Positions 10,374-60,399 of a stretch of 64,000 nucleotides of DNA are shown here, piece after piece. Made by a program: the position numbers and the translations under genes. The DNA is from Toxorhynchites rutilus septentrionalis (Eukaryota > Arthropoda > Insecta > Diptera > Culicidae). Where the stretch lies: contig NC_073745.1 in assembly GCF_029784135.1 (NCBI RefSeq), positions 111,900,716 through 111,964,715 on the forward strand. The letters are read 5' to 3'. The notes under the pieces are model-generated. The model was not told where the DNA came from, searched no databases, and saw only the letters and a list, made by a program, of their open reading frames with translations. Positions within the stretch are counted from its first letter, which is position 1. The number at the start of each line of letters is the position of its first letter.

Positions 10374-10706
10374 AATAACGAACACCCGGCATGATAATGT
10401 GAGACGCTAACTACTCGGCCACGGGTGCACTTACCGTGGCCGAGTGGTTAGCGTCTCACATTATCATGCCGGGTGTTCGGGTTCGATTCCCGTTCTGGCC
10501 GGGAGATTTTTTGTCAGAGAAATTTCCTTCGACTTGCACTGCGGTCACGCGTATTCTAGAGCTTGCCCCTCGGAATACATTCAAGGCGTGTTATTTGGCT
10601 TCTCAAATCTCAACTAAGTATTAATAAGTGACGCTAGTTAATGCATACGTTGAGATGGCAAAAGTTCCACAAGAAACGTTAACGCCATTCAATAAGAAGA
10701 AGAAGA
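10374..10706 (+). mobile_element. tRNA-derived SINE with inverted head duplication
   Basis: The head has box A TGGCCGAGTGGTTAGCG (10437-10453) and box B GGTTCGATTCC (10480-10490). A unique body follows, then an AAGAAGAAGAAG tail. The insert is bounded by an exact 11-bp target duplication, ACACTATCGAT, at 10363-10373 and 10707-10717. Between the left target copy and the SINE head lies an inverted copy of the first 46 bases of the head, so the duplication was inserted together with the SINE. Box A and box B look intact, so Pol III could in principle use them; activity is not shown. Confidence 0.88.
10379..10479. repeat. 46-bp inverted repeat hairpin at the SINE head
   Basis: Arms 10379-10424 and 10434-10479 are inverted copies with one clear mismatch (TAG versus TGG within box A) around a 9-nt spacer. 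A transcript of this stretch would fold into a long hairpin. Confidence 0.92.
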
Positions 10707-12633: not shown

Positions 12634-12649
12634 GACGTAGGATTACGTC
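12634..12649 (+). repeat. GACGTAG-family end motif (isolated)
   Basis: GACGTAGGATTACGTC follows a T run (TTTT) and matches the 5' terminal palindrome of the family described at 17035, 31283 and 33697. No partner 3' hairpin was found nearby, so this may be a truncated copy. Confidence 0.5.
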
Positions 12650-25597: not shown

Positions 25598-25787
25598 GAA
25601 TTTCATACTGCTCTTCGATCACACCAGTGGCGGAGCACACTGCCGTAATGAAAGGGAAAAGCTCTGTTTAAAAGACGTCAAATATTTGAATTCATAAAAT
25701 CAAACACATCTCAAAAGAAAAAAAAAACATCCTAGATTGAAAAAACATCCTAGAAAAGAAAAAAAACATCCTAGATCCTAGAAAAAA

Positions 25788-27125
25788 AATGAGTGGGTTA
25801 TATCTATGATATAACCGCAAGGTTCACGTGGAACTACCTTAGCTTAGCAATCATTCGTTTGTATTGATTAAATTCTTGATTGAATGAAACAGTTTCCAAA
25901 TTCAATTGAGTTCAATATATTTGCTCTGTGAGTGAAAAAAATGAACAAATGCCGTGTAAAGTCAATTCATTTATTGTGATTGATTGTTCTTCGTTACAAG
26001 TAAATTTAATGACAGACCTTTTACGTTTGGTATGATGACTAGAACAAAATATATGTACGGAAGAATTATCAAACGTTTGATGAACCAGCCTAAGGCTGAA
26101 AATCTTTCCAATAAAGACAAAAAAAAATTATCAAACGATTATTTTATTTTACATTTCCCTCTGAAGTTTACATCCCAAAAGTGTACATACTTCTCGAATC
26201 TCGAATTTGCTTGAAACTGGGAAGTTCATTCGCTTCTAGTGGCTGCACGATTTTCCCAGGTTCCTAAGTTTATAAGATCATGTTAGGACAGACATATTCC
26301 ACTCTGCACAAAGGCAAGCGAGGACAAAAGTACTCGCAGTTTGCATTTATTTGCAGAGCCGATTTCCCCAGAAACCTCGGTTTTGAAGTCTGTGTTAGGG
26401 AAACACATTTCAATCGGAATAAAAATACCCCCGATTTGTATGAATTCGCAATGCCGATTTCCCCACGCTTCATGGATTTGAAGTCTGTGTTAGGGAAACA
26501 CATTCCAGTCGGAACAAAAATACCCCCGACTTGCATGAATTTGAAATACCGATTTCTCCAGGCACCTTGGTTTAGAAATATCTATTAGGGAACACATTTC
26601 GGTGGGAACAAAAGCTCCCCCTACTTTCGTGTGTTCTTTTTCTTCTTTTTGGTTTTAAGAGGGTTTAAACTTTTCAGTTCACTCGCCTCTAGGCTCTTTC
26701 GTGTGTTTGCAATGCCGATTTCGCTGCTTGGTTTTAAAGTCTGTGTTAGGGAACATTTTTCGATGAGAACAAAAGTCCCCCTACTTTCATGTATTTGCAA
26801 TGCCGATTTCCCCAAGGCTGCTTGGTTTTGATGGCTGTGTTAGGGAAACCGTAAATCGGGCCAATCAAAACGATGCAGTTAGGGCGTTTAGATAACGCCT
26901 AATATTTTACAGTTATTCAATTGTTTATCTAATGAAGAACAACATTTTGTTAGTTGCGATAGATGCGTAGAAATATTCCCTATCAAGTGATGCAAACATC
27001 TCTCCTATCCAGTACGAAATGTTCGAGCTATAAGCATTCGAAATCTTTCATTTTTTCCTGCATGTTCTGTGTTTAGGTTTTCATTTTCCCCTCCATATAT
27101 TGCGGTTAGACGTAGTCCCACGTCA
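25788..27125 (-). mobile_element. GACGTAG-family element (copy 3) with tandem repeats
   Basis: The 5' end is GACGTAGTCCCACGTC (27109-27124, seen on the plus strand) next to an A run. At the other end a perfect hairpin (25796-25816) has arms GGTTATATC and GATATAACC around TAT, followed by an inverted-motif remnant TTCACGTGGAACTA. It sits in a run of AAAACATCCTAG units that resumes on the right side (27126 on), so the insertion is clean. The interior carries about five 95-bp tandem units. Confidence 0.78.
26360..26850 (-). repeat. About 95-bp tandem repeat (five units) with an open frame
   Basis: Units share CGATTTCCCCA, GAAGTCTGTGTTAGGGAAAC and GGAACAAAAATACCCCCGAC. Most unit lengths are near multiples of three, so the minus strand stays open across units and reads repeated peptides such as FVPTGMCFPNTDFK and GEIGIAN. 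The same unit is found at 38815-39125, 51245-51425, 57040-57110 and 59690-59730. It is probably not a real protein. Confidence 0.8.
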
Positions 27126-27646
27126 AAAAACATCCTAGAGAACAAAATTCAAAACATCCTTGCATAAACTGTATTTGCTCTACATCGGATAATTTCGGAC
27201 GGCATTATCTTATTCAACACGGATGTTTTCAATTGCATTTTGAATTGGAAAAAATTGGTTCTGTCCAGAATAATTGAATCATTTGTTTGAGAAACCCCCT
27301 AAACGCCATTTTTATCAAAATTGACTTTTTGGCAGATTTTGAGTTCTTGGAGTTACCTACATAGACTATCAAAATTTCAGAAAAAGTTAGTTCTACGAAT
27401 AACCTTTAATTAGAAATGCAAATATTCGTTTGTTTGAGAAACCCATAACTCCATGTTTCTAAAGCACAAAGAATATTAAAGCGGGTGGCAGGCAAAGTCC
27501 CGTAGTACTTATCAAGTACTTTTCATATATTATGTAACGCAAAAAGTTTTTTAAAATATCCTCTATCTTCCTCCACAACGTATTTTTGTATTTCTTATGC
27601 ATTAAGAGTAAAACAAACAATACTCATACAACGCCCCTCCCTTCCG
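27126..27646. other. No gene recognised
   Basis: AT-rich with TTTGAGAAACCCC motifs that recur at 27285, 27435 and 28832, suggesting an unclassified dispersed repeat. Confidence 0.35.
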
Positions 27647-31171: not shown

Positions 31172-34100
31172 CGGTCATTAACTAATCGAATAATTTTTAG
31201 CTGTTCGTTATTCGATACGATCAATCGCCACACTGAGAGAAATAATTAATTAGACTAATTTGACCAATTTGTTAGAAATTTTGACGTAGAACTACGTTTT
31301 TCACTAAGGGTTCCTTATCAGAAAATAGGTCTCGTTTTAATGAAATGAAGTTAACGTTAATAACTATTTTTGCCGTGAACGAATTCTGGCGATTTATATA
31401 CCAAACGAATCGGAAATTCCCTAATATTTGTTTGATATGCCACACATTACAATCCCATAGTCTGTATATGGTTTAAAATGATGAAAATTGGAAGCATTCC
31501 GATTTCCTCATAACATTTGCTCTGTCCATTTGTGTGCTTTCCCGAACAGAGCTGTCAATAACGAACAACTTATCGACGAGCAACGAAGGGGAAATCGTAA
31601 GATATCAACTGTATGACACCCGCCATGTTTTTGATGCCAACATCTCAAACGTCAAAATTATTTGTTTTCTTCTTGTTTCCCGTTTTGTTCGTTTTATTTG
31701 TTTTGATTGACATAATCCGATCAGCTGTGAAAGTTTCGAACGAAGTTTCAATTGCCGAGTTTTGTGAAATTTATATCGTTGTCATAGATCGTGATAAGTG
31801 AATCGAAATGAAATGTTTCATATCTTCCTGTGGTAGTGATTTTCCCAAACATAAAAACGTGGATGGTACAGAAAATGAGTCGCTTTCCCTACACCGATTC
31901 CCCGAGGAAGTGGAACGACGTATCGCTTGGTTGCAGTCAATAGCGAATGCTGAGAATACGGCTTATGTTGTCGATGAGATTAATTTAAATGCGCATCGGG
32001 TGTGCTCGAAACACTTCCTCGATGCGGATTTTTATGTTTTGCATGGAAAAAGGCTGCTAAAAAAACTGCGATACCGGTTCTTTTTGGAAGTAATCACACT
32101 ACAGACGGAGATTTTGGAACGTATGTTGCAATACCTTTTCTATATTCATTTATGCTTTAAAATATTAATTATTCTTTATAGCGAATTTCATGATTCAGGA
32201 TTTGTTGATGTCAACGTATTAGATTTTTTTCCTGTCGTTGTCGAATTCCCCCCCGAAGATACAGGCGCACCGTCGTTGAAGCATGGATGGTATGTCGGTT
32301 TACTCTTTTATTTTCACTCTAAAAAGACCTCCATTTGCAGCGAACTTCAAAGTTCTGACGAAATTCGTGTACCGGATGTCAAAATGACTCCTGACGTTGG
32401 AGAGTCAACCGGCGAATCAAAATTGAAACGTAGAAGGTATTTTATTCCATATCTAAGGTTTCAATCACAGTATTACCTCGATATAACGCAATGTTTACCT
32501 GAGAGTATATTTAAAAAACTGCCAATACATAACAAAATGTAAATGAAAGTTGCCTAATATCGGGATTTGACTGTAGTAGATGAATAATACTAATCATATT
32601 GTATATTTATATATACATTACTAGGACCTTGAGATATGCCGGTGATATTAAAAATGAAGGAATAACACCCGAAGAAGCTCTTATTATTTTGCCCAAAGTA
32701 CAATCAAAGCTTTTACAATCTAGAAGAGCAATTAAATTATTAAGAAACGAAAACAAACGTATGAGAAATAAATGGAACAGCATGCAGGAACATTTAAACA
32801 ATATCGCATCGAAAAACTTCCCATCCGATGTAAGCAATTTTGCTCCACAGGTAAAAAAACCCTGGTTGGAATACTTGTGCAAAGTTAAACATTCCTATGA
32901 ATCTTTCAGCAATATTCATCCAATCAGGATGTATTCGAGGAATTGCACTTGCGACCGAAAAGTCACCCTCGTAGTGAAAACTTGCGTAACTTCGCGGCCA
33001 CACTTCATTTTCATTCCCCCAAGGCCTATTCATACGTTCGTAGCGCATTTAACGACACACTTCCACATCCTTGAACTATAGTTAGATGGTACGAAAGCCT
33101 CGACGGGAAGCCAGGAATTACGAAAGAAACATTAGACGTACTTCGGAAGAAGACCGCGGATATGAAGGAAAAAGGAAAACCTCTACTCGGTTATTTACTG
33201 ATGGACGAAATGGCCATTAGGAAACAGGTCATCTGGAATGAACAGACGTAAGAATTGGACGGAATAGTTCAGCACCATTGGATCCAAGGGACGGACACAG
33301 AATCGCTTCAACAAACTAATGCGGCAAAAGAGGCCCTAGTTTTTATGGTGTCAGGCATTCAGGATTCCTGGAAAAACCCAGTCGCTTACTTCCTTATCAA
33401 TTTGATGGCACAGTTACCAACATCGCGACAGCAAACGCTCAAGGGTGCAACATTCGTGCAAATTCTCGAACCTTGAAAACGTTCTTCCGAAATCCTGCAT
33501 CAGAAAACAATGTGTATGTGTTACTTGATGCAGTGCACATGCTTAAATTAGTGCGGAACACCTTACACTCACATAAGGTTTTGGTGTCGCAGAATGGTTA
33601 TGTGAAGTGGGAATATGTAGAGAAATTGAACGATAATCAAAACACCAGAAAAATTAAATTAGCACCCAAACTCACTAATCAGCACATTTTTTTTTTGACG
33701 TAGGACTACGTCTAACCGGAAGATATAGGGGGTGAAATGGAAATCTAGGCACTGAACAAGTAGGAAAAAATGCAAGATTTGGAACGCTTATAACTCGAGC
33801 ATTTCTCAATAGATCGCAAAGGTTTTTGCATCAATTGATAGGAAATATATCTACGCATCTATCATAACGAATAACATTTCATTTTTCTTGAGATAAATAA
33901 TTGAATAATTGTGAAATATCAAGCATTGTCCAAATACACTATGTGCCCATTTTTGATTGGTCCATTTTGTGCTCCTCAAATCGTACCGACCAAAACGGGC
34001 AACCAGAGCAGCAGCGAAATAGAATGAAGCACGATTGGAAAGGAAAAAGAAAAAAATGAGGGAAACATTGGTCGCAGTCTCACACATGCGTAATTCTCGA

Positions 34101-34214
34101 GCCAGCCAGTCAGCTTAAAAATCCCCTCTCCGCTGCCGTAACGATCATTCTTATCCGAACCGTACACCACATCGTTTCGCATCACCTCACATCAACAAAC
34201 CAACACAAGCAGCC

Positions 34215-34445
34215 ATGGTTGGATATGGCAAAGGAGGAAAAGTGAAGGGAAAGGCAAAATCCCGCTCGAACCGTGGTGGTCTGCAATTTCCCGTAGGTGT
34301 ATCCGCCAATTGCACCGGAAAAGGTAGCTAGGTCGAGCGCGTTAGTACCTGTGTACCAGTCCACCTAGCTGGCGTTATATAGTTTCGGCCGCCGGAGTGA
34401 TCGAGTTGGCTGGCAAAGCTGCTCGCGACGATAAGAAAACCTGCA
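34215..34445 (+). pseudogene. Histone H2A pseudogene, copy 1
   Basis: It begins ATGGTTGGATATGGCAAAGG and reads [20 protein letters not shown], then FPVG, the H2A N-terminal tail and first fold segment. A frameshift and an in-frame TAG follow near residue 38. The DNA then still matches the H2A core (ERV-APVYLA-region, then ELAGKAARDDKKT) to about 34445. Beyond that the 3' third is scrambled. Upstream, 33990-34214 looks like a histone leader. A histone 3' stem-loop lies at 34683-34698. It cannot make H2A. Confidence 0.88.
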
Positions 34446-35260
34446 TTCGGAACATAACACATTCGGTTCGGCGGACATCAAGACAACAGGCAGTTGCAGC
34501 GAATGGCGAGTGGCAAACGCAATCGCAAAACGGCATCAGGTAGCAGAAGAAAAAAGTTTGTTCTTTATACAAACTGCTTTGGTGGCAAATCCAGAACAAA
34601 GCGGCATCGAGGGCGTTCGAAATGGTTTTTTTCAAAACCACGAGTACTAAGTTTTCTAAATTGGAACCATTCCATAAAACAAGGCGCTTTTCAGGGCCAT
34701 TAAACCTTCCAAAAAAGAGTTTAGGAAATAAAGTTCAATGCTTTCTAAAACATTATCCAAAATAATAATAAAACACAAATTGATGTTTTCATAATTTGTT
34801 TGCCAGGATTTGATGAGTATGTGAATTTGGCAGTTGTTCTGAGCTTATTGATAGTTGGGGACTTTCCTGATTATTCAATTTCCACCAATTCTTAAATTGT
34901 TTCCAGATTGAAAGTACAGTAATCTACAATTAGTTCGACATTTAGCTAATTGGACGGACATGTAATGTGACTTATTTAGTTGGACATTTTTGTAAACATA
35001 GAGATCCAAATTATGATCACACATTGAAAGTCGACACTGTACCACTGTCATCGCAAATGTTCAATTACAGGTTAAAATTACCTCCAATCCGGCACTGAGT
35101 GGTGGTAATGCGACGTGCCATTGAATGTAATTTACTGTAAAATATGTCACAAGCTGGATGGGAAGAAATTTTCCAACTGTGAAAGCTGTGGCGAGTGACA
35201 ACAAATCGCTAAACAGGAAGGTTTAGCCGAACAAGATGGGGATATCGAGTGATAACAAAA
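34230..35260 (+). repeat. Direct duplication, unit 1 (1,031 bp)
   Basis: This segment is repeated almost base for base at 35551-36581, with an offset of 1,321 bp. The few differences include ACAAAGCGG versus ACAAGGCGG and GGAACC versus GGAATC. It spans the H2A relic, its stem-loop and downstream spacer, so it may be a remnant of tandem histone-cluster organisation or a duplication within the element. Confidence 0.92.
34683..34698 (+). terminator. Histone mRNA 3' stem-loop (H2A copy 1)
   Basis: GGCGCTTTTCAGGGCC has the 6-bp stem and TTTC loop of replication-dependent histone 3' ends, with one stem mismatch. A purine-rich AAAAAAGAG follows about 12 bp later, at the place of the U7-binding element. 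Confidence 0.85.
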
Positions 35261-35284
35261 TAATAAACTCTTTAGACTTTTTGT

Positions 35285-35300
35285 GATCCTGAAAAGGACC
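35285..35300 (-). terminator. Histone-type 3' stem-loop, minus strand
   Basis: The reverse complement is GGTCCTTTTCAGGATC, a 6-bp stem (one G-T pair) with a TTTC loop. It lies in the spacer between the two duplicated units. No coding remnant is recognised upstream on this strand, so it marks another lost histone gene in opposite orientation. Confidence 0.75.
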
Positions 35301-35460
35301 CTTTTTAGTCTGTATGTGAATCCAACGAGCGAACAAATCGTAATGAATGTATTTTTTTGCCATCGCTCCCTTTTAACGCTCATTCGTTCGTCTCGTTGGA
35401 CCCGCCCCTTTGGCTGAGTCTGCCGATTTGTCTCTATCCTGTGAGTGTGTACCGCTAGAG

Positions 35461-35467
35461 TATAAAA
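35461..35467 (+). promoter_or_regulatory. TATA box of a histone-type promoter relic
   Basis: TATAAAA is followed by CACGCGG. It lies about 85 bp before the truncated H2A copy 2, whose start codon has been replaced. The surrounding block is absent from copy 1, so it probably comes from a different histone gene. Confidence 0.5.
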
Positions 35468-35550
35468 CACGCGGACCCCAAAAAAATATCTTATTTTCTT
35501 TCAAACCGTAAACCCGTGTGGTTGTACGGCATCGGCATCGTGTACTCAAC

Positions 35551-35766
35551 AAAGGAGGAAAAGAGAAGGGAAAGGCAAAATCCCGCTCGAACCGTGGTGG
35601 TCTGCAATTTCCCGTAGGTGTATCCGCCAATTGCACCGGAAAAGGTAGCTAGGTCGAGCGCGTTAGTACCTGTGTACCAGTCCACCTAGCCGGCGTTATA
35701 TAGTTTCGGCCGCCGGAGTGATCGAGTTAGCTGGCAAAGCTGCTCGCGACGATAAGAAAACCTGCA
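35551..35766 (+). pseudogene. Histone H2A pseudogene, copy 2 (no start)
   Basis: Same as copy 1 from GKGGK onward, but without the ATG and first six codons. The sequence before AAAGGAGG differs completely. One early change makes KVKGK into KEKGK. It shares the same frameshift and TAG as copy 1, so the decay predates the duplication. Confidence 0.88.
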
Positions 35767-36003
35767 TTCGGAACATAACACATTCGGTTCGGCGGACATC
35801 AAGACAACAGGCAGTTGCAGCGAATGGCGAGTGGCAAACGCAATCGCAAAACGGCATCAGGTAGCAGAAGAAAAAAGTTTGTTCTTTATACAAACTGCTT
35901 TGGTGGCAAATCCAGAACAAGGCGGCATCGAGGGCGTTCGAAATGGTTTTTTTCAAAACCACGAGTACTAAGTTTTCTAAATTGGAATCATTCCATAAAA
36001 GAA

Positions 36004-36019
36004 GGCGCTTTTCAGGGCC
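36004..36019 (+). terminator. Histone mRNA 3' stem-loop (H2A copy 2)
   Basis: GGCGCTTTTCAGGGCC, identical to the loop in copy 1, including the single mismatch. Confidence 0.85.
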
Positions 36020-36594
36020 ATTAAACCTTCCAAAAAAGAGTTTAGGAAATAAAGTTCAATGCTTTCTAAAACATTATCCAAAATAATAATAAAACACAAA
36101 TTGATGTTTTCATAATTTGTTTGCCAGGATTTGATGAGTATGTGAATTTGGCAGTTGTTCTGAGCTTATTGATAGTTGGGGACTTTCCTGATTATTCAAT
36201 TTTCACCAATTCTTAAATTGTTTCCAGATTGAAAGTACAGTAATCTACAATTAGTTCGACATTTAGCTAATTGGACGGACATGTAATGTGACTTATTTAG
36301 TTGGACATTTTTGTAAACATAGAGATCCAAATTATGATCCCACATTGAAAGTCGACACTGTACCACTGTCATCGCAAATGTTCAATTACAGGTTAAAATT
36401 ATCTCCAATCCGGCACTGAGTGGTGGTAATGCGACGTGCCATTGAATGTAATTTACTGTAAAATATGTCACAAGCTGGATGGGAAGAAATTTTCCAACTG
36501 TGAAAGCTGTGGCGAGTGACAACAAATCGCTAAACAGGAAGGTTTAGCCGAACAAGATGGGAATATCGAGTGATAACAAAAACACAACACCAAA

Positions 36595-36610
36595 GGTTCT
36601 TTTCAGAACC
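36595..36610 (+). terminator. Perfect histone-type 3' stem-loop
   Basis: GGTTCTTTTCAGAACC pairs perfectly over 6 bp around TTTC. Its stem differs from the H2A loops, so it derives from another histone gene whose coding part is gone. Confidence 0.85.
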
Positions 36611-38557
36611 ATTAACATATTCATAAAGAGTAAACAGTAAACTAATCCATTTTTCAGGTAGATAGGTAGGTATTCACGTAGGTGAAGAAAATAAAACAAT
36701 ATATTTAAAATATATATTTAACAAAAGCTGTCCCCTTTGCATAGTCCTACGTCACTCCGGTTATGTCCCCGACATTACCCACTCGTCTTTTTAAATTCAA
36801 AGATGAATGTGTTTGGCTGTTCAAGTTTTGAGCAGTGGGTCGCTATGGCACTTGATAAATTACAAAACATAGATTCAGATTTTGTAGCTTGCGCAGCAAC
36901 CGTGGAATTTCTATCATTATTCAACGATCTATTCGACATCATGAATAGCATGGACGAAAACGCAAATCATTTTAAAAAACCATTGTCCACAGAGAATTTC
37001 GACCTTTATTGCGGCGCCTTCAACTACATCGAAGACTATATAAATAAACTAAAGCTACCGAATGGATCCGCTATTTTGCATGCGAAATGCAAAACCGGGT
37101 TTCTGGGCTTTCTAGTTAATTGAGAATGTTTCAAGGCCATTTATCAAATTTATGTGGAGGAAACCAAAGAACTGAATCATATTTTCACATATCGATTCAG
37201 CCAAGATCATCTAGAGCACTTCTTCGGAGCAATACGCTCGAAGAATGGATCGAACAATAACCCCAGCGCCGTTCAATTTCGAGCGAGCTATAAACGGTTA
37301 ATTGTGTACAATGAAATCAACACGATGAATATCCCAACTTTTGGTAATTTCCGAAGTTTCCACAACACCAAATATATGTTCGCAACAAATACCAGAAAAA
37401 GTATTCAGCCTTCCAAGGACACCAGCCGTTGAATCCACCCACTCCAGATCCACAAGTTCATCAAACAAATTATATCGATTTCATTGAAGACGCCGACCGC
37501 ACCGTTTCAATGGATATCCATTCTATAGAAGTGCTTCGAAAATTAATTAAGCAATTGGATTGCCAAACATGTTGTTTGATTGTAAATAATGACAATAAAG
37601 AATCCATCGTTTCCATCTGCAAGGCAACAGAGTATGAATTTACGGTAAGGTTCGTTCTATAAAGACAGATCAATTCTGAAATTTTATTTCCAGATCCTCG
37701 TTGGTAATCAACATAATGTTGATATTAACAAATACTATAATTTAACTACTTCGCACACAAAATGATTTCCTGTTCGAACTCTTCCGCGACCACCCAGAAC
37801 AAGCAAATGAGCACAAAAAGGCATTGATAAGACGAACCATTTTAATATACTTGGACATAAGACTGAAGCTCTACAGCAAAACATTTATCCCGTTCAAGCC
37901 AACAATAAGACAAAAATTTACAAAACTAATTTTATTTGAGGGGAACTATGTAATATGCGATCCAGAATGCAACCGGTAAGTTTATATTGTTACAAATAAA
38001 TAACAATACTAATAATGATTTCACGTCAGCTTACTTAGGGAACGATCATGAGTCAGAACCGGTAATATGATAATCTTTGTGTTACTACAGCATAACTACA
38101 TCATCGCGAGAATCATCTGTAATAGAGGTGCGTGCTGTTGAAATTCACCTTCTGACAATTATAAAACACAACTCAACTTTCGATTCTTTATTTGATAATT
38201 AATTAACTACTGTTCCCTTCAACTCTCTTTTATAGATCCAATTGAATACATCAACTAAAAGTATACAGCATCACCCTATCCGGGAAATCGATCAGATTAT
38301 CAGAACCCAAGCGTTGACAAGATAATAATACTCTATCGGTAAATGGTTCGATTAAAAAGATTAGCTAGTAACTAAAGAAATATTTTTTCTACAATGCTAT
38401 AATGTGGCGTTAGTGAAGATCATCAGCATTCTACATCCGAAAGAGAAATTTTGCTCATTATTTATCTGAAATTATAAAATTTATCTGAAATTATTATCTG
38501 TGCTTCTCTTAATTGTCATCATAAAACCGAAAACAATCGCTGATATTCCAGAAAAAA

Positions 38558-39402
38558 AATGGGTGGGTTATATCTATGATATCACCGCAAGGTTGACGTG
38601 AGATTACCTTAGCTTAGCAATCATTTGTTTGTATTGATTAAATTTTTGATTGAATGAAACAATTTGCGAATTCAATTGAATCCAATATATCTGCTTTGTG
38701 AGTAAAAAGATTGTATAATGCCATGTAGGATCAATTCATGCATTGTGATAGATTATGTTCTCCGTTACAAGTAAATTAAATGACAGTTCTTTTACGTTTG
38801 GTATGATGACATCTTGATTTTGAAGTCTGTGTTAGGCAAACATATTTCAGTCGGAACAAAAATGCCCCCGACTTACATGTATTTGCAATGCCAATTTCCT
38901 CACGCTCTTTGGATTTAAAGTATGTGTTAGGGAACCACATTTCAGCCGGAACAAAAATATCCCCGACTTTCATGTATTTGCAATGGAGGTTTCTCCAACG
39001 TTGCTTGGTTTTGAAGTCTGTGTTGGGGAACACATTTCGGTGAGAACAAAAGTCCCCATACTTCCATCTATTTGCAATGCTGATTTCCCCAAGGCTGCTT
39101 GGTTTTGATGGCTGTGTTGGTGAAACCGTAACCGGATCAATCAAAACGAGGCAGTTATTGCGTTTAGATAACGCTTAACATTTTACAATTATTCAATTGT
39201 TTATCTAATGAAAAATAACAGTTTTTTTTAATTGCGATAGAAACGTAGAAATATTCCCTATTATTTGATGCAAACATCATCCCGATCCAATAAGAAATGT
39301 TCGAGTTATAAGCACTCGGAATCTTTCATTTTTCCTGCATGTTCTGTGTTTAGGTTTTCATTTTACCCCCCATATACTCCGGTTAGACGTAGTCCCACGT
39401 CA
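38558..39402 (-). mobile_element. GACGTAG-family element (copy 4), inside the P element
   Basis: 5' end GACGTAGTCCCACGTC at 39386-39401; hairpin at 38566-38586 with arms GGTTATATC and GATATCACC around TAT (one mismatch). Both junctions lie in A runs (GAAAAAAAA and CAAAACAC). It is a shortened relative of copy 3 (25788-27125) with three of the 95-bp units. Confidence 0.78.
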
Positions 39403-41046
39403 AAACACACTTCTTATAGTCTCTCGCAGTCGACGGTAGCAGTAATTACTGAGAGATTCCGCCAAGTACATGAGGTCGAACTCTTTGTATCAATTACAAC
39501 ATTTCGTGTACGATCGTAACCAGCTGGACCTCTGCAGATTAGAAGAAAAAATAGTCATATTTTTCGATATTCTCGTTTTACTACAAACCCATATAATCCA
39601 AACATCGCTTTCCCTGATGTCTTTAGATGTTCACCTTCGGCAATTTTCATCATTCACCAAAAAAAAATATTGATGCTCTCCACTGTAGCCGATACATCTC
39701 CGAGGATAATCCGCACATAATCTACATTCAGCGAGATCATAATCCCGTAAGATTTATCTTCCGGCGACAACATCGTCTTACCCACCAGCGCTATATGTTG
39801 TTCCACGTATTATTGTCCACCAGTTTAGTCCGGGTTGCCGTCCCAGGTATCTGATAGCTACAGTCGCACCAAGACATGACATGATCATCCGGGCGGTGTT
39901 TTAAAAAAAGCCAGTTGTAAGCTTAGCGGAAAACATTTTAAATGTTGGGGATACTGCCAATTGAGAGAATATCGATAATTTAATTATATTATTCAAACAT
40001 TGGGCAATCGTTTACCCATCTACTACTGTACGTGTTTGACGTAACCCAGTAGAATAAGAATCACCACAATAGCAACACTCTTAGGATTCCATTCCGTCTG
40101 ATATGCTGTTCCCCGTGAGTACTGTGCGGACTGTGCGACTTTCCTGTGGTTCAACTTTCCTGCCTACAATAATGTACAATTAGTCACTTTCAAACAAAAT
40201 TGACGTTGGAAATATTTGCCTTGTCATACAACTGCTCCCTTTTGTCTGTACCTTCCTCCTATTCATAATCGTTTCCATTCATCCTTTAACGGTCACATTT
40301 TCGCCAAAAACACTTTTAACAAGCCAAAGAAGGCTACACCAGCGAGAACGCAAACCACCGGAGTATAAGGCAACATCAACCGAACCATCACCCCAACAAA
40401 GTAGACTGCACTTATAGCGTAAAAAATGACAAACACTCGCTCATCGTTAATCTTTTTGATTCATTAGCACGAACCAACAGATTATTATTATCAGACCATC
40501 AGCACTAATTCGAAAGGTATGTTTACAAAACACTAAAATATAATGAGAATCAACAGCTGTTTCAGTTGTCAACAATCTGACAGCGATTACCAATTTACCC
40601 ACGGGTATGACTAAAACGTCAAATCCCTCGTATTGCCAGTGTACCCAATATTGCTGCGGTTTACTGACATTTTGGTTCTATCAATTACTATTGTTTACAA
40701 CTCGGTCCGGTTATATAATCGAATAGTGGCTAACTTTAAATTCCATGTTAAATTTGAACACCTCCATGTGAAACCGAAATATGAAAATCGCTCATGCAGT
40801 TAAAAATAAAGCATACTATCTCCGTGATTTCAATGATTTCAATCCTCGTAAATGATATGTTAGTAAACAAATGACGCCATATTGATTTTGATTTTGGGTA
40901 GCCTATATTCAATTGATGTCTAACCCCTGAATTTACCACCATCTGACATATCGTGATGTCGATGATGAATTTTTTTAGCAGAGTGATAGTGAGATGGGCG
41001 GTGACTGTAGATAAAGCGAGATAGCGATAATCGTACCATACGGCTG
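39403..41046. other. P-element 3' region, no gene recognised
   Basis: Unique within the window. Short frames only (39265-39854, 40748-40942). It ends with the P-element terminal repeat. Confidence 0.4.
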
Positions 41047-49247: not shown

Positions 49248-49507
49248 ATATGATAATCATTTCATTCGAAAGACAAAATGTCCACGAGTTATATTATTGA
49301 TAATTATTGACCCGAAAACTTGTTTCAATAGCTTTAAAATTGCTTAGAAAACAGGTTATTTAAACCGTATGTGAACTCGCATACGCTCTGGAAATCCATT
49401 GGGTTGATGCGACGATGTGAGATGAGGACGGTCGCACTCAGACGCCTATGCATTATGGTCTTCTTTTCCAATTTAATTTCTCTTCTGCAGTTGAACCGAA
49501 CGGATGG

Positions 49508-49567: not shown

Positions 49568-49935
49568 GGACTCGTTTGATTGGGACCAAACAGACAGCTC
49601 GTAAACCTATCGGTGGTAAGGCACCACGAAAGCAGCTCGGAAAAGCGCACCAGCCGCAGGAAGTGTGAAGAAGCCTTATCGCCACCGACCGGAAACAGTC
49701 GCTTTGCGTGAGATTCACCGCTATCAGAAGTCGACCGAATTGCTGATCCGCAAGCTACCTTTGTAGTGTTTGGTTCGTGGAATTGTCCAGGACTTCAAAA
49801 CCAACTTGCGCTTTTAAAGTTCCTCGGTTATGACACCGCAGGCCAATTTGTGTGCTATCCACGCAAAACGCGTCACATCCTGCCCGATGACATTCAGCTG
49901 GCCAGTTGTATTCAAGGAGCGTGCTATTACCTTAA
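49568..49935 (+). pseudogene. Histone H3 pseudogene
   Basis: Read in shifting frames: [17 protein letters not shown], then a deletion in the tail (KAAR missing), [27 protein letters not shown], an in-frame TAG, then DFKT-LR. A larger deletion removes the helix-2 region. The C-terminus resumes with KRVT, DIQLA and the last codons before a stop-like TAC. The ATG has been lost. The histone stem-loop follows at once. No functional H3 can come from it. Confidence 0.9.
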
Positions 49936-49940
49936 TCAAC

Positions 49941-49956
49941 GGCCCTTTTCAGGGAC
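49941..49956 (+). terminator. Histone mRNA 3' stem-loop (H3 relic)
   Basis: GGCCCTTTTCAGGGAC, a 6-bp stem with one mismatch at the base side and TTTC loop, directly after the H3 stop region. Confidence 0.85.
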
Positions 49957-50498
49957 ACCAAATTTATGGATTAGAGTTCTGAAAAGTTTTTGCAGGCCGA
50001 ACTGAAAGAAGAATTGGTGTAGTGGATATTATCGACGTGGATATTATATTACATATCAATATTTGTTTACGAATGCTACAATCGTTCGTCGTTATCGGGG
50101 GTTATTGGTATTTCCGAGGAGGAATCGATTCCCCCTTTTAGCGTTAATAATTTTTTTCTGGCTAAACGAAGTGGTATGATAATAAATTTATTCGAAAGAT
50201 GAAATGTCTAAGATTTATATGCTTGTTACTTATTTATTGCTAAGTCAACGTTAGTCCTACGTCCACATTGCGGTTATATGAAAGATACAACCCACTTCTA
50301 GTTTTTTAACTTTGAAAAATAATAACTCAAAAACGCTGTTTCCTCTCTGATTTTTGGATGTGTTATGTAAAAAAAAGTCACAGGAGGGTTGTGTCCGAGA
50401 CACGACCGCATAGTTGACGTAGGATTCCGTTAGGCTATCTGTTGAATTTGAATATGTTGGAAAAATTACATCGGTAAACTCTTTGATAATGATTTGGT

Positions 50499-50514
50499 GG
50501 CCCTGAAAAGGGCC
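50499..50514 (-). terminator. Perfect histone-type 3' stem-loop, minus strand
   Basis: The reverse complement is GGCCCTTTTCAGGGCC, perfect 6-bp stem, TTTC loop, with AACAAGAC before it. The coding part that should lie at higher coordinates is not recognisable. Confidence 0.85.
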
Positions 50515-51244
50515 GTCTTGTTTGGTTGTTCGGTATTGTTTGTTCACTCCACCAATGTTTACCGAGTTATTATGATGGTAAATGGTAAATAGTCGTTGGA
50601 TGGTGCGTATCAGATAAAAGATGCCGAAGTGGAACGAGATATGATGAAAACCGCCCTCTGTGATCCTAGACGAGACCCCTGTTATGTGTGGATGAAATAA
50701 AGAAAAAAAAACTCACCAATGTAATATAAGATAATTACTGTGCACAATTATCAATATTTCTCATCAGTAAAAACTTGTTATTTTAATATAATTAGAACAT
50801 ATTTGAAATGGAAAAGGTCATTTTCTTTTACAATTTTTTTCTTTCTGAGTGTTCATTCAAACCAATGCGAATTTTGATTGGACTAATAGTAACACAAAAT
50901 ACTACACTATATGTAGAGCATAATCACTTTTTCTAACATTTCATCACTTTTCTAATTTTTCTTGCCGTATAAACTTTCCTTGGGTGAAAATGAACACAAC
51001 AAAACAAACAGCTTAAACCGAACGATCCGTTCTCGAGCGGGAACACACCTTGGTTTTTATTTATGAAAATTGAAATAAATCGTTTCATATATCAAGTCAT
51101 TTTAACACAAATGCTACCATATAGAATTTTACACTAACACCAGTGCTAAATTTTTCACAATACACGATCAGTCAACATTAAAGTTCCAAATTTAAATTTT
51201 ATTTGCTAGAATTAATCGTATCACTCACCTTACTTGTAATATAA

Positions 51245-51425
51245 AAATGCCCCCGATTTGCATACTTGCATTTGCCATGCCGAGATTACCCAGGCACCTT
51301 GGTTTTGATGTCTCTGTTAGGGAACACTTTTCGGTGGGAACAAAAGCTCCTCCTACTTCCATGTATATGCAATGTCGATTTCCCCCAGGCAGCTTGGTTT
51401 TGATGTCTCTGTTAGGGAACCGGCG
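51245..51425 (-). repeat. About 95-bp tandem units (two)
   Basis: Same unit as 26360-26850 (TTTGATGTCTCTGTTAGGGA, GGGAACAAAAGCTCC). Confidence 0.75.
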
Positions 51426-51719
51426 CATGTGTCGTCAATTTCGACCAATTAAAAGAGGGTATTTCCGTTAGGATAGGGGTTGAGATTTTTTAATTGTTCG
51501 ATAGTTAGTTTCATAACATACATTATTTTCTTCAATATAAAAAATTGTTATGGAGTGCCGAAATCGATTGACGCAAAAATTTCATTAATCCATCATGAAA
51601 TGACTAAGTAATAAGCGTTTGAAACTGGACAATTTTCACAATGTGCTCGATTTTGCAAAATATTTATAAATTTGCAAACTGCAAAAAAAAAGTTCCGCCT
51701 GCTCATGAGAGCAAATAAA

Positions 51720-57574: not shown

Positions 57575-57730
57575 AAAAAATTCGAGATTACTGTAAATCC
57601 CCTAGAGTAATGCAATTTTAAAACATCTGGCACCAACTTTTTTTTTTAAAAAACTTCGATTTCGGTGATTTTTCGTTTTCGTAACTTTTTGAAATTCGAG
57701 ATGACCATTTTCATTGGCACCCTTGCAGCA
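57575..57730 (+). repeat. Fragment of the 54340-56560 inverted-repeat family
   Basis: TTCGAGATTACTGTAAATCC, then GAAATTCGAGATGACCATTT and TCATTGGCACCC, in the same order as both sides of the left arm at 54340-54880 but with the middle deleted. Confidence 0.6.
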
Positions 57731-58320: not shown

Positions 58321-58361
58321 AAGGGGTTGTATCTAGGATACGACCGCATGTCTTCGACGTA

Positions 58362-59635
58362 AAGGGTGTGTCACATCAAATTGCATCACGGAAAAAACGC
58401 TGTAGAAATTCGCCCAGTAGACCGATCCTTTTGAAAATTTTAGACAGTAAAATAAAAACTATTAAACAACTTTTGGCATTTTCTTTTTATTCATACTTCG
58501 AGCCCAAGCCCGTATGCTCGCACCTTCCTCTTTACCCCGTCCATAAGGTTCTGTACAACGTCAGGTTGTAGTTTTTTTTTTAACAGAAATCCATTTTCTC
58601 TTGAAGTCCGCCTCCGATTTGACAACTTTTGGGTTCTTCCGGAGGGCCTGCTTCATAATCGCCCAATATTTCTCTTTGGGCAAAGCTCCGGCGCGTTGGG
58701 CGGGTTCATTTCCTTTGGCACGAAGGTGACCCCGTTGGCTTCGTACCACTCCAACATGTCTTTTGAATAGTGGCACGAAGCGAGATCCGGCCAGAAGATG
58801 GTCGGGCCCTCGTGCTGCTTCAATAGTGGTAGTAAGCGCTTCTGTAGGCACTCCTTAAGGTAAACCTGCCCGTTTGCCGTGCCGGTCATCACGAAGGGGG
58901 CGCTCCGCTTTCCGCAAGAGCAGATCGCTTGCCACACCATGTACTTTTTGGCAAACTTGGATAGTTTCTGCTTGCGAATCTCCTCCGGAACGCTGAATTT
59001 GTCCTCTGCGAAGAAGAACAACAGGCCCGGCAGCTGACGAAAGTCCGCTTTGACGTAGGTTTCGTCGTCCATTACCAGGCAATGCGGCTTCGTCAGCATT
59101 TCAGTGTACAGCTTCCGGGCTCGCGTCTTCCCCACCATGTTTTGCCTTTCGTCGCGGTTAGGAGCCTTCTGAACCTTGTATGTACGCAGGCCCTCCCGCT
59201 GCTTGGTCCGCTGGACGAATGAACTTGACAAATTCAGCTTATTGGCGACATCCCGGACCGAACTTCTCGGATCACGTCTAAACTGCTTAACTACGCGCTT
59301 GTGATCTTTTTCACTGACGGAGCATCCATTTTTGCCGTTCTTCACCTTCCGGTCGATGGTTAGGTTCTCGAAGTATCGTTTTAGTACTCTGCTGACCGTG
59401 GATTGGACGATTCCCAGCATCTTACCGATGTCCCGATGTGTGCGCAGGATTAATTCACGACGCTCTTTTTCGTTCGACGACATTTTCCCAAATTTACGAA
59501 AAATTGACAGTGAAGCATGGCCAACGTGATCTATACACTCTTATCTGATTATAAGCAAAAGCTGAATATATAATTCCTAAAAATAAAATTTCTACAGCGT
59601 TTTTTCCGTGATGCAATTTGATGTGACACACCCTT
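58362..59635 (-). mobile_element. Tc1/mariner DD37E transposon (1,274 bp), nearly intact
   Basis: Perfect 49-bp terminal inverted repeats (58362-58410 and 59587-59635) begin AAGGGTGTGTCACATCAAAT. TA is duplicated at 58360-58361 and 59636-59637. The uninterrupted paralogous site is seen at 56653-56662. Identical terminal repeats suggest recent insertion. Confidence 0.93.
58561..59483 (-). pseudogene. DD37E (ITm) transposase with one frameshift
   Basis: From MSSNEKERRELILRTHRDIG (59483). An N-terminal helix-turn-helix pair (VQSTVSRVLKRYF; SVRDVANKLNLSSSFVQR) is followed by the catalytic core: LVMDDETYVKADF (first Asp), FWPDLASCHYSKDM (second Asp), and PELCPK-EKYW (Glu). 37 residues separate the second Asp from the Glu, the DD37E signature of the group known from mosquitoes. 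A single missing base near 58700 shifts the frame between PELCP and EKYW; the rest (AIMKQALRKNPKVVKSEADF) continues to about 58561. Length, about 305 residues with the shift bridged, is near usual. Otherwise undamaged, so the defect is recent or an assembly error. Confidence 0.93.
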
Positions 59636-60173
59636 TAGAACTACGCAATTATATTATGCAATCCACTTGTTTACCACGGAATTTCACAGGTACATCGATT
59701 TTGAAGTCTGTGTTGGGGGAAACCGTAAATTGGGTCAATCAAAACGAGGCAGTTAGGTCGATAACGCTTGACATTTTACAGTTATTCAATTGTTCATCTC
59801 ATGAAAAATAACGTTTTATTAATTGTGATAGACGCGTAGAAATATTTCCTATCAATTGATGCAAACATCTTTCCGTTCTGTTAAGAGATGTTATAGTTAT
59901 AAGTATTCGAAATACGGGTAGACTTAGCACACAAATCGGCAGAACAAATGTATGAGAAAAAGGAAGTTCTTCCAGTTTTCATAAATTTAAACCGTTTAGA
60001 GATTAGCGAATTGTTATCAAACAAATCTTAGAAAACTTCCGATTCGATTTGTATGTAAATCATGAGAATTCGTTCACAGTGAAAAAAGTTATTAACGTTA
60101 ACTTTATTTCATAAAAACGTGACCTGTTTTCTGATTTGGCACCCTTCCTGAAAGACGTAGTTCTACGTCAAAA

Positions 60174-60399
60174 AACCTGACAGTCCCCACCGCGAATCGT
60201 CATTATGATACACGACAAGCACAACACTTATAACGAAACCGAGCAACATCTAGCATTGATCAACAGCGTTTTTTAAGGACCGTCGCAATTCAATACTTTA
60301 GTCTCGCATATCAAATCGATAACCAGTACAAGTGTGTTTAGAGCAAAGCTGCGATTGCATCTGAAGACGAAAATTAACTCTTGTTTTTTATTGATTCGT
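60174..60399. other. No gene recognised
   Basis: Short unique spacer between the GACGTAG-family element and the non-LTR tail. Confidence 0.4.

Follow-up and report, generated by a model that had tools for sequence, protein, structure and literature searches.

Canonical Helitrons end in TC at the 5′ terminus and in CTRR at the 3′ terminus. They insert between A and T and, as in maize and bats, capture gene fragments (Thomas, Vadnagara and Pritham, 2014; PMC4067079). Helentrons and their non-autonomous forms, the HINEs, are described in the same paper as having palindromic subterminal inverted repeats (subTIRs) and a 3′ palindrome, as inserting into T-rich targets without a change of the target site, and as carrying tandem repeats in some copies (PMC4067079). 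Gene fragments are given there as rare in HINEs, with none described for the mite families (PMC4067079). The closest described system is Helentron-Cq-32A of the mosquito Culex quinquefasciatus, in which fragments of the histone genes H4 and H1 (H15) occur in eight copies (Thomas, Vadnagara and Pritham, 2014; PMC4067079). Here we analyse 64,000 nucleotides of the mosquito Toxorhynchites rutilus septentrionalis (assembly GCF_029784135.1, contig NC_073745.1, forward-strand positions 111,900,716 to 111,964,715; hereafter the window, with coordinates counted from its first nucleotide). A 3,091-bp insertion at 33697-36787 carries pieces of a histone H2A locus, and we are confident, short of certainty, that it is a HINE, that is a non-autonomous, rolling-circle Helentron, with captured histone DNA.

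The insertion is bounded by a run of ten T at 33687-33696, of which part is target and part possibly element, and by a run of five T at 36788-36792 (both plus strand). These flanks agree with insertion into a T-rich target that leaves the site unchanged, no empty allele having been seen; in the published scheme the T run is counted as part of the element (PMC4067079). That scheme places a palindromic subTIR of 12-15 bp some 2-4 nt inside the 5′ terminus (PMC4067079), and here the 16-bp palindrome GACGTAGGACTACGTC (33697-33712, plus strand; a 6-bp hairpin fold, z -3.8) abuts the T run, a motif that follows T runs elsewhere in the window as well. At the other end an inverted subTIR with at least 11 identical bp is expected some 38-60 bp inward of the 3′ terminus (PMC4067079); TAGTCCTACGTC at 36742-36753 (plus strand) repeats 33697-33708 in inverted orientation, with all 12 bases identical, and stands 34 bp from 36787, or 39 bp with the T run included, at the lower edge of that range. 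The scheme further has a palindrome of 5-10 bp lying 8-35 bp from the 3′ terminus (PMC4067079), and the hairpin ATGTC-CCC-GACAT (36763-36775, plus strand), with a 5-bp stem that is weak as a fold, lies 12 bp from 36787 and is followed by a short tail ending in ACTCGTC. It is because of these ends that the insertion is assigned to the Helentron type, as a first-pass annotation of the DNA had proposed; canonical Helitron ends and A/T insertion were not seen.

With DINE-1/INE-1 and the other HINEs the insertion shares its non-autonomous state, short subterminal repeats, a 3′ palindrome and T-rich insertion (PMC4067079), whereas the subTIRs of DINE-1 are described as not palindromic and the 5′ subTIR here is palindromic, a trait also of the mite, Culex and Helentron-41 families. 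The main text of PMC4067079 holds no match to ACGTC or GACGT. A comparison of the 5′ end with IMG/VR gave 0 matches, and a shorter 5′ pattern run against prokaryote genomes hit 11 stretches in bacterial records that we judged to be chance. Among the reading frames of at least 95 amino acids listed for the insertion none encodes a histone, and no intact frame was seen in the insertion.

The host of the insertion is a P-element-type transposase gene, whose 5′ part (31808-33686, plus strand; THAP and transposase domains in Pfam) includes a THAP domain (PF05485, within 31808-32110, E 3.5e-10). Directly before the element lie profile positions 2-51 of PF21788, the TNP-like GTP-binding insertion domain (E 2.1e-13, in 33461-33688), and directly after it come positions 55-119 (E 1.3e-9); the frame resumes with profile position 55 at 36788-37120 (plus strand) and runs to an in-frame stop at 37121-37123. 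A THAP domain together with PF21788 is presumably the make-up of P-element-type transposases; PDB searches with both flanks gave no P-element chain, all matches having E ≥0.11. When the element is removed, the flanks join in one frame if 4, 7, 10 or 13 T are kept (13 counts tried, 3-15). The host transposase looks decayed: when introns are not modelled, each of the three frames is interrupted by stops across 31808-33696. Since the outer flanks form one transposase domain that can be joined in frame, all histone DNA at the locus lies inside the insertion. The first-pass view of a bounded mobile element with histone pieces inside a P-element transposase is thus upheld by the subTIRs, the hairpin, the T runs and the split PF21788.

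The histone content was searched with tblastn over the whole window, using fly-type histones as queries. Both H2A relics named at first pass were recovered on the plus strand, relic 1 at 34215-34447 (E 1.6e-17) and relic 2 at 35551-35768 (E 2.3e-15), broken by the same stop codon and the same frame change; the next-best H2A match in the window reaches only E 1.7. The initial 38 amino acids of the H2A relic also match H2A chains in the PDB (best E 4.1e-10). No match to H1, H2B or H3 was obtained inside the element up to E 5, and H4 was rejected, with two weak matches only (E 0.079 and 1.6), both on the start of H2A. Judged by its position before the H2A start, 33970-34214 (plus strand) is a candidate H2A 5′ flank or promoter piece. 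Much of the interior is a tandem duplication on the plus strand, with units at 34229-35260 and 35550-36581, the latter holding relic 2, that are 99.0% identical (10 differences in 1,032 bp, no gaps). Both units have the stop and the frame change in common, and the damage to H2A is therefore older than the duplication; the tandem arrangement may itself be an assembly error. Between the units a spacer at 35306-35549 (plus strand), with a TATAAAA-like motif near 35461 found by eye, is possibly another histone promoter.

Alongside the H2A relics, cmscan with Rfam detects six histone 3′ stem-loops in 33000-37500, five on the plus strand and one on the minus strand. The first-pass annotation was right that they occur in both orientations and wrong in counting four, two of the six being duplicates of two others. 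The best of them, at 36590-36634 (plus strand, 39.5 bits), is the only one to reach the Rfam gathering score and has AAAGAG downstream. The stem-loops at 34619-34664 (24.5 bits, weak, no U7-type motif found) and 34678-34723 (24.0 bits, AAAGAG downstream) recur as duplicates at 35940-35985 and 35999-36044 (20.3 bits), respectively, all four on the plus strand. The minus-strand stem-loop at 35260-35305 (23.9 bits, AAAGAG downstream) has no recognisable parent gene; a simple stem pattern recovered the five plus-strand stem-loops and missed this one, which is the least sure of the six. Altogether a motif of the AAAGAG type stands 11-16 nt 3′ of four of the six (one of the four a duplicate), where the U7-binding element is expected.

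A2 (25777-27131, minus strand) and A3 (38547-39408, minus strand) are further copies that start with the 5′ end of this insertion. Both begin flanked by T like the histone-bearing copy, and the 5′ module at 33697-33969 (plus strand) is common to the three (blastn, 78% over 278 bp for A2 and 78% over 273 bp for A3). Both contain 95-bp tandem repeats; tandem repeats are described for DINE-1/INE-1 and other HINEs as well (PMC4067079). In the window this repeat is found in three Helentron-type copies, at 26359-26613, 38813-39124 and about 51240-51420, and it was not detected in the histone-bearing copy. In A2 and A3 cmscan found no stem-loop and there is no DNA similarity to the histone cargo; A3 gave no histone match in tblastn, and a low-complexity H2B match in A2 (26665-26624, E 1.6) was taken as chance. 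Of the copies in the window that share this 5′ end, one in three thus holds recognisable histone DNA, and since A2 and A3 are without convincing histone sequence, the capture belongs to the copy at 33697-36787. The suggestion made at first pass, that histone fragments are carried repeatedly by a family not yet described, is not supported in that wording, in view of these copies and of the capture published in 2014 (PMC4067079).

Similarity to A2 and A3 stops near 33970 and does not rise above shuffles beyond that point. A reading of 33970-34110 as a diverged 95-bp repeat was rejected, since out of 300 shuffles 95 scored as high against A2, 46 against A3 and 253 against a further copy, E2 (see below). 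Over the last 60 bp the histone-bearing copy is 60% identical to A2 and 57% to A3, and A2 and A3 are 89% identical to each other. Judged from these comparisons, the histone-bearing copy looks like a chimaera, in which histone DNA lies between a start of the A family and a terminator of another kind. Near-identical subTIRs start other families at 12634, 17035, 22463, 31283 and 60169, and a further family near 57576 has a damaged palindrome.

We propose that single-stranded DNA was copied from an element with an A-family 5′ end, that the Rep/helicase/endonuclease for this came from elsewhere, the published scheme having a related autonomous element that encodes such a protein (PMC4067079), and that the copying would have run on, or a break would have been patched, through the DNA of replication-dependent histone genes; end bypass and composite rolling-circle transposition have been put forward as possible routes by which host DNA is taken up (PMC4067079). 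The element would thereby have gained a piece of an H2A gene, one or more additional histone 3′ ends in the opposite orientation, and a 3′ terminus from another subfamily. The captured H2A would then have decayed, and a segment of about 1.3 kb would later have been tandemly duplicated. The composite now lies within a run of T inside the P-element-type transposase gene, into which it presumably moved after the capture, and its histone pieces are probably passengers without coding function.

A number of observations weigh against this account. Read-through from a complete element should have left an old 3′ end upstream of the cargo and none is seen; therefore a truncated parent or patch repair would be needed. 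Several points weaken the 3′ end of the insertion: its hairpin at 36763-36775 is weak when taken alone (DNA fold, z -1.4), its subTIR at 36742-36753 is an incomplete palindrome, and it scores 42.6 bits, below seven of the eight other ends, against a 3′ end model that was itself built from eight ends of the window including this one. With all 15 T kept, the transposase frame fails to join. The H2A relics were assigned by comparison with fly-type and PDB histones, five of the six stem-loops score 20.3-24.5 bits, below the gathering score, and the minus-strand stem-loop at 35260-35305 folds no more stably than shuffled sequence (z -0.7 with DNA parameters). Finally, the full 5′ end of this element was seen in only three copies, which come from a single 64-kb window.

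Among the other explanations, the one that fares best is that a HINE already in place received a histone piece in some other way, for instance by retrocopy or ectopic repair, so that the element made no capture of its own. The patchwork interior with its internal duplication could be a repair product; against this, a 5′ flank and sequence beyond the stem-loops, both recognised by eye, are present and would be lacking in a processed transcript, and the 3′ end is unlike that of the A2/A3 subfamily, so we regard this origin as unlikely.

A second Helentron-type locus, at 49.2-51.6 kb, bears on the remaining explanations. It contains an H3 relic with stops and an internal gap (49585-49918, plus strand), recovered by tblastn in three parts (49626-49886, E 7e-35; 49585-49638, E 1.8e-5; 49877-49918, E 1.1 on its own); Pfam gave no histone family for the initial 26 amino acids of the relic. 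Behind the relic lie a stem-loop at 49936-49981 (plus strand, 26.5 bits, below the gathering score) and, 301 bp on from where this stem-loop starts, a Helentron-type 3′ end at 50242-50309 (plus strand, nhmmer E 1e-16), for which no 5′ end was found. Facing this end is another Helentron-type 3′ end, E2, at 50369-50438 (minus strand, E 1e-17), and both are among the eight ends from which the 3′ model was built. The stem-loop GGCCCTTTTCAGGGCC lies 37 bp inside the E2 end (50475-50519, minus strand, 30.9 bits, below the gathering score). It is canonical-looking, its parent gene is not recognisable, and E2 and the H3 locus are arranged tail to tail. The E2 element (50369-51636) probably includes a diverged 5′ module of the A family, at 51443-51636 (minus strand; nhmmer E 1.8e-8, positions 77-273 of the 5′ model), in which the terminal palindrome was not found. 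The H3 relic is bracketed by an 80% direct repeat (49249-49308 and 50175-50234), and 50138-50221 is 67% similar to 60101-60018, which belongs to another Helentron family; these two likenesses could mark capture borders around the relic.

Across the window nhmmer finds nine Helentron-type 3′ ends with E ≤3e-8, one of them new relative to the model, the remaining matches having E ≥0.01. For three of the nine a histone stem-loop on the same strand lies no further off than about 300 bp (76, 141 and 301 bp from stem-loop start to the 3′ end model), and all eight stem-loops of the window (cmscan, E ≤5) are in the H2A element or the second locus. About 60 bp separate two of the three stem-loop-bearing ends, which may represent one event. 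The looser form of the first-pass idea, a repeated association of such elements with histone sequence, thereby finds some support in the two related 3′ ends of the second locus that stand beside histone 3′ ends. A single histone capture shared by the three loci was rejected, because outside the element modules and the stretch of the stem-loop the H2A element shows no similarity to the H3 and E2 loci.

These data also raise the idea that a decayed, orphan piece of a histone cluster was invaded by a Helentron or its ends, the histones being host DNA. The histone pieces in both orientations of the H2A element resemble a cluster fragment, and the H3 relic and the opposite stem-loop at 49.2-51.6 kb face each other like convergent histone genes; at 33697-36787, where the flanks are a single transposase domain joinable in frame, this origin is disfavoured, and overall we think it very improbable. 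The second locus may be a piece of an old histone cluster. Equally implausible is a functional cargo, in which a histone promoter and 3′-end signals would yield S-phase, non-polyadenylated transcripts that aid the family's movement: the three stem-loop-bearing ends among nine and the H4 and H1 pieces of the Culex Helentrons (PMC4067079) would suit it, but six of the nine ends have no stem-loop, two of the other three perhaps record one event, H2A and H3 are broken, and the element showed no intact reading frame.

Capture by a HINE, the reading preferred here, makes the locus a second case of a known phenomenon, the histone capture by a mosquito Helentron reported in 2014, with other histone genes. 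As published, Helentron-Cq-32A and HINE-Cq-32A.1 share with our element a mosquito host, palindromic subTIRs, a 3′ stem loop and a T-rich target; they too have tandem repeats in some copies and histone fragments broken by a stop, a frameshift and indels (PMC4067079). They differ from the present element, in which the cargo is H2A with a tandem duplication, in one copy, and no coding frame for transposition is present. The likeness is drawn from the published description, and the two may or may not be related by descent. Judged by titles and the starts of abstracts, in a search that left most subscription papers outside, no later report of histone capture by Helentrons or Helitrons was found. 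The locus therefore adds H2A, and probably H3, to the single printed Helentron histone-capture case that we found.

A broader proposition, which we hold to be improbable, is that uptake of replication-dependent histone DNA is a recurrent or an ancestral habit of mosquito Helentrons (H4 and H1 in Culex; H2A, H3 and 3′ ends of unassigned genes here), with the 3′-end signals kept near their terminus, through a preference for multicopy histone clusters active in S phase as templates for copying or a benefit from the signals. If a genome-wide bias to histone genes were true, rolling-circle capture governed by S-phase template availability would become testable; as one decayed copy, the element is ordinary transposon debris.

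Two features elsewhere in the window complete the description. A hairpin region at 10390-10468 gave matches to four microRNA families, each falling well short of its gathering score, and is probably an inverted-repeat element. At 58360-59637 (minus strand) a transposase frame (58656-59537), with two best matches to Toxorhynchites rutilus proteins (92% and 91%) and weak Pfam support for Tc1/mariner, is bounded by identical 51-bp inverted repeats (58360-58410 and 59587-59637) and lies within a Helentron-type element on the minus strand, with its 5′ end near 60174 and its 3′ end at 58363-58305.

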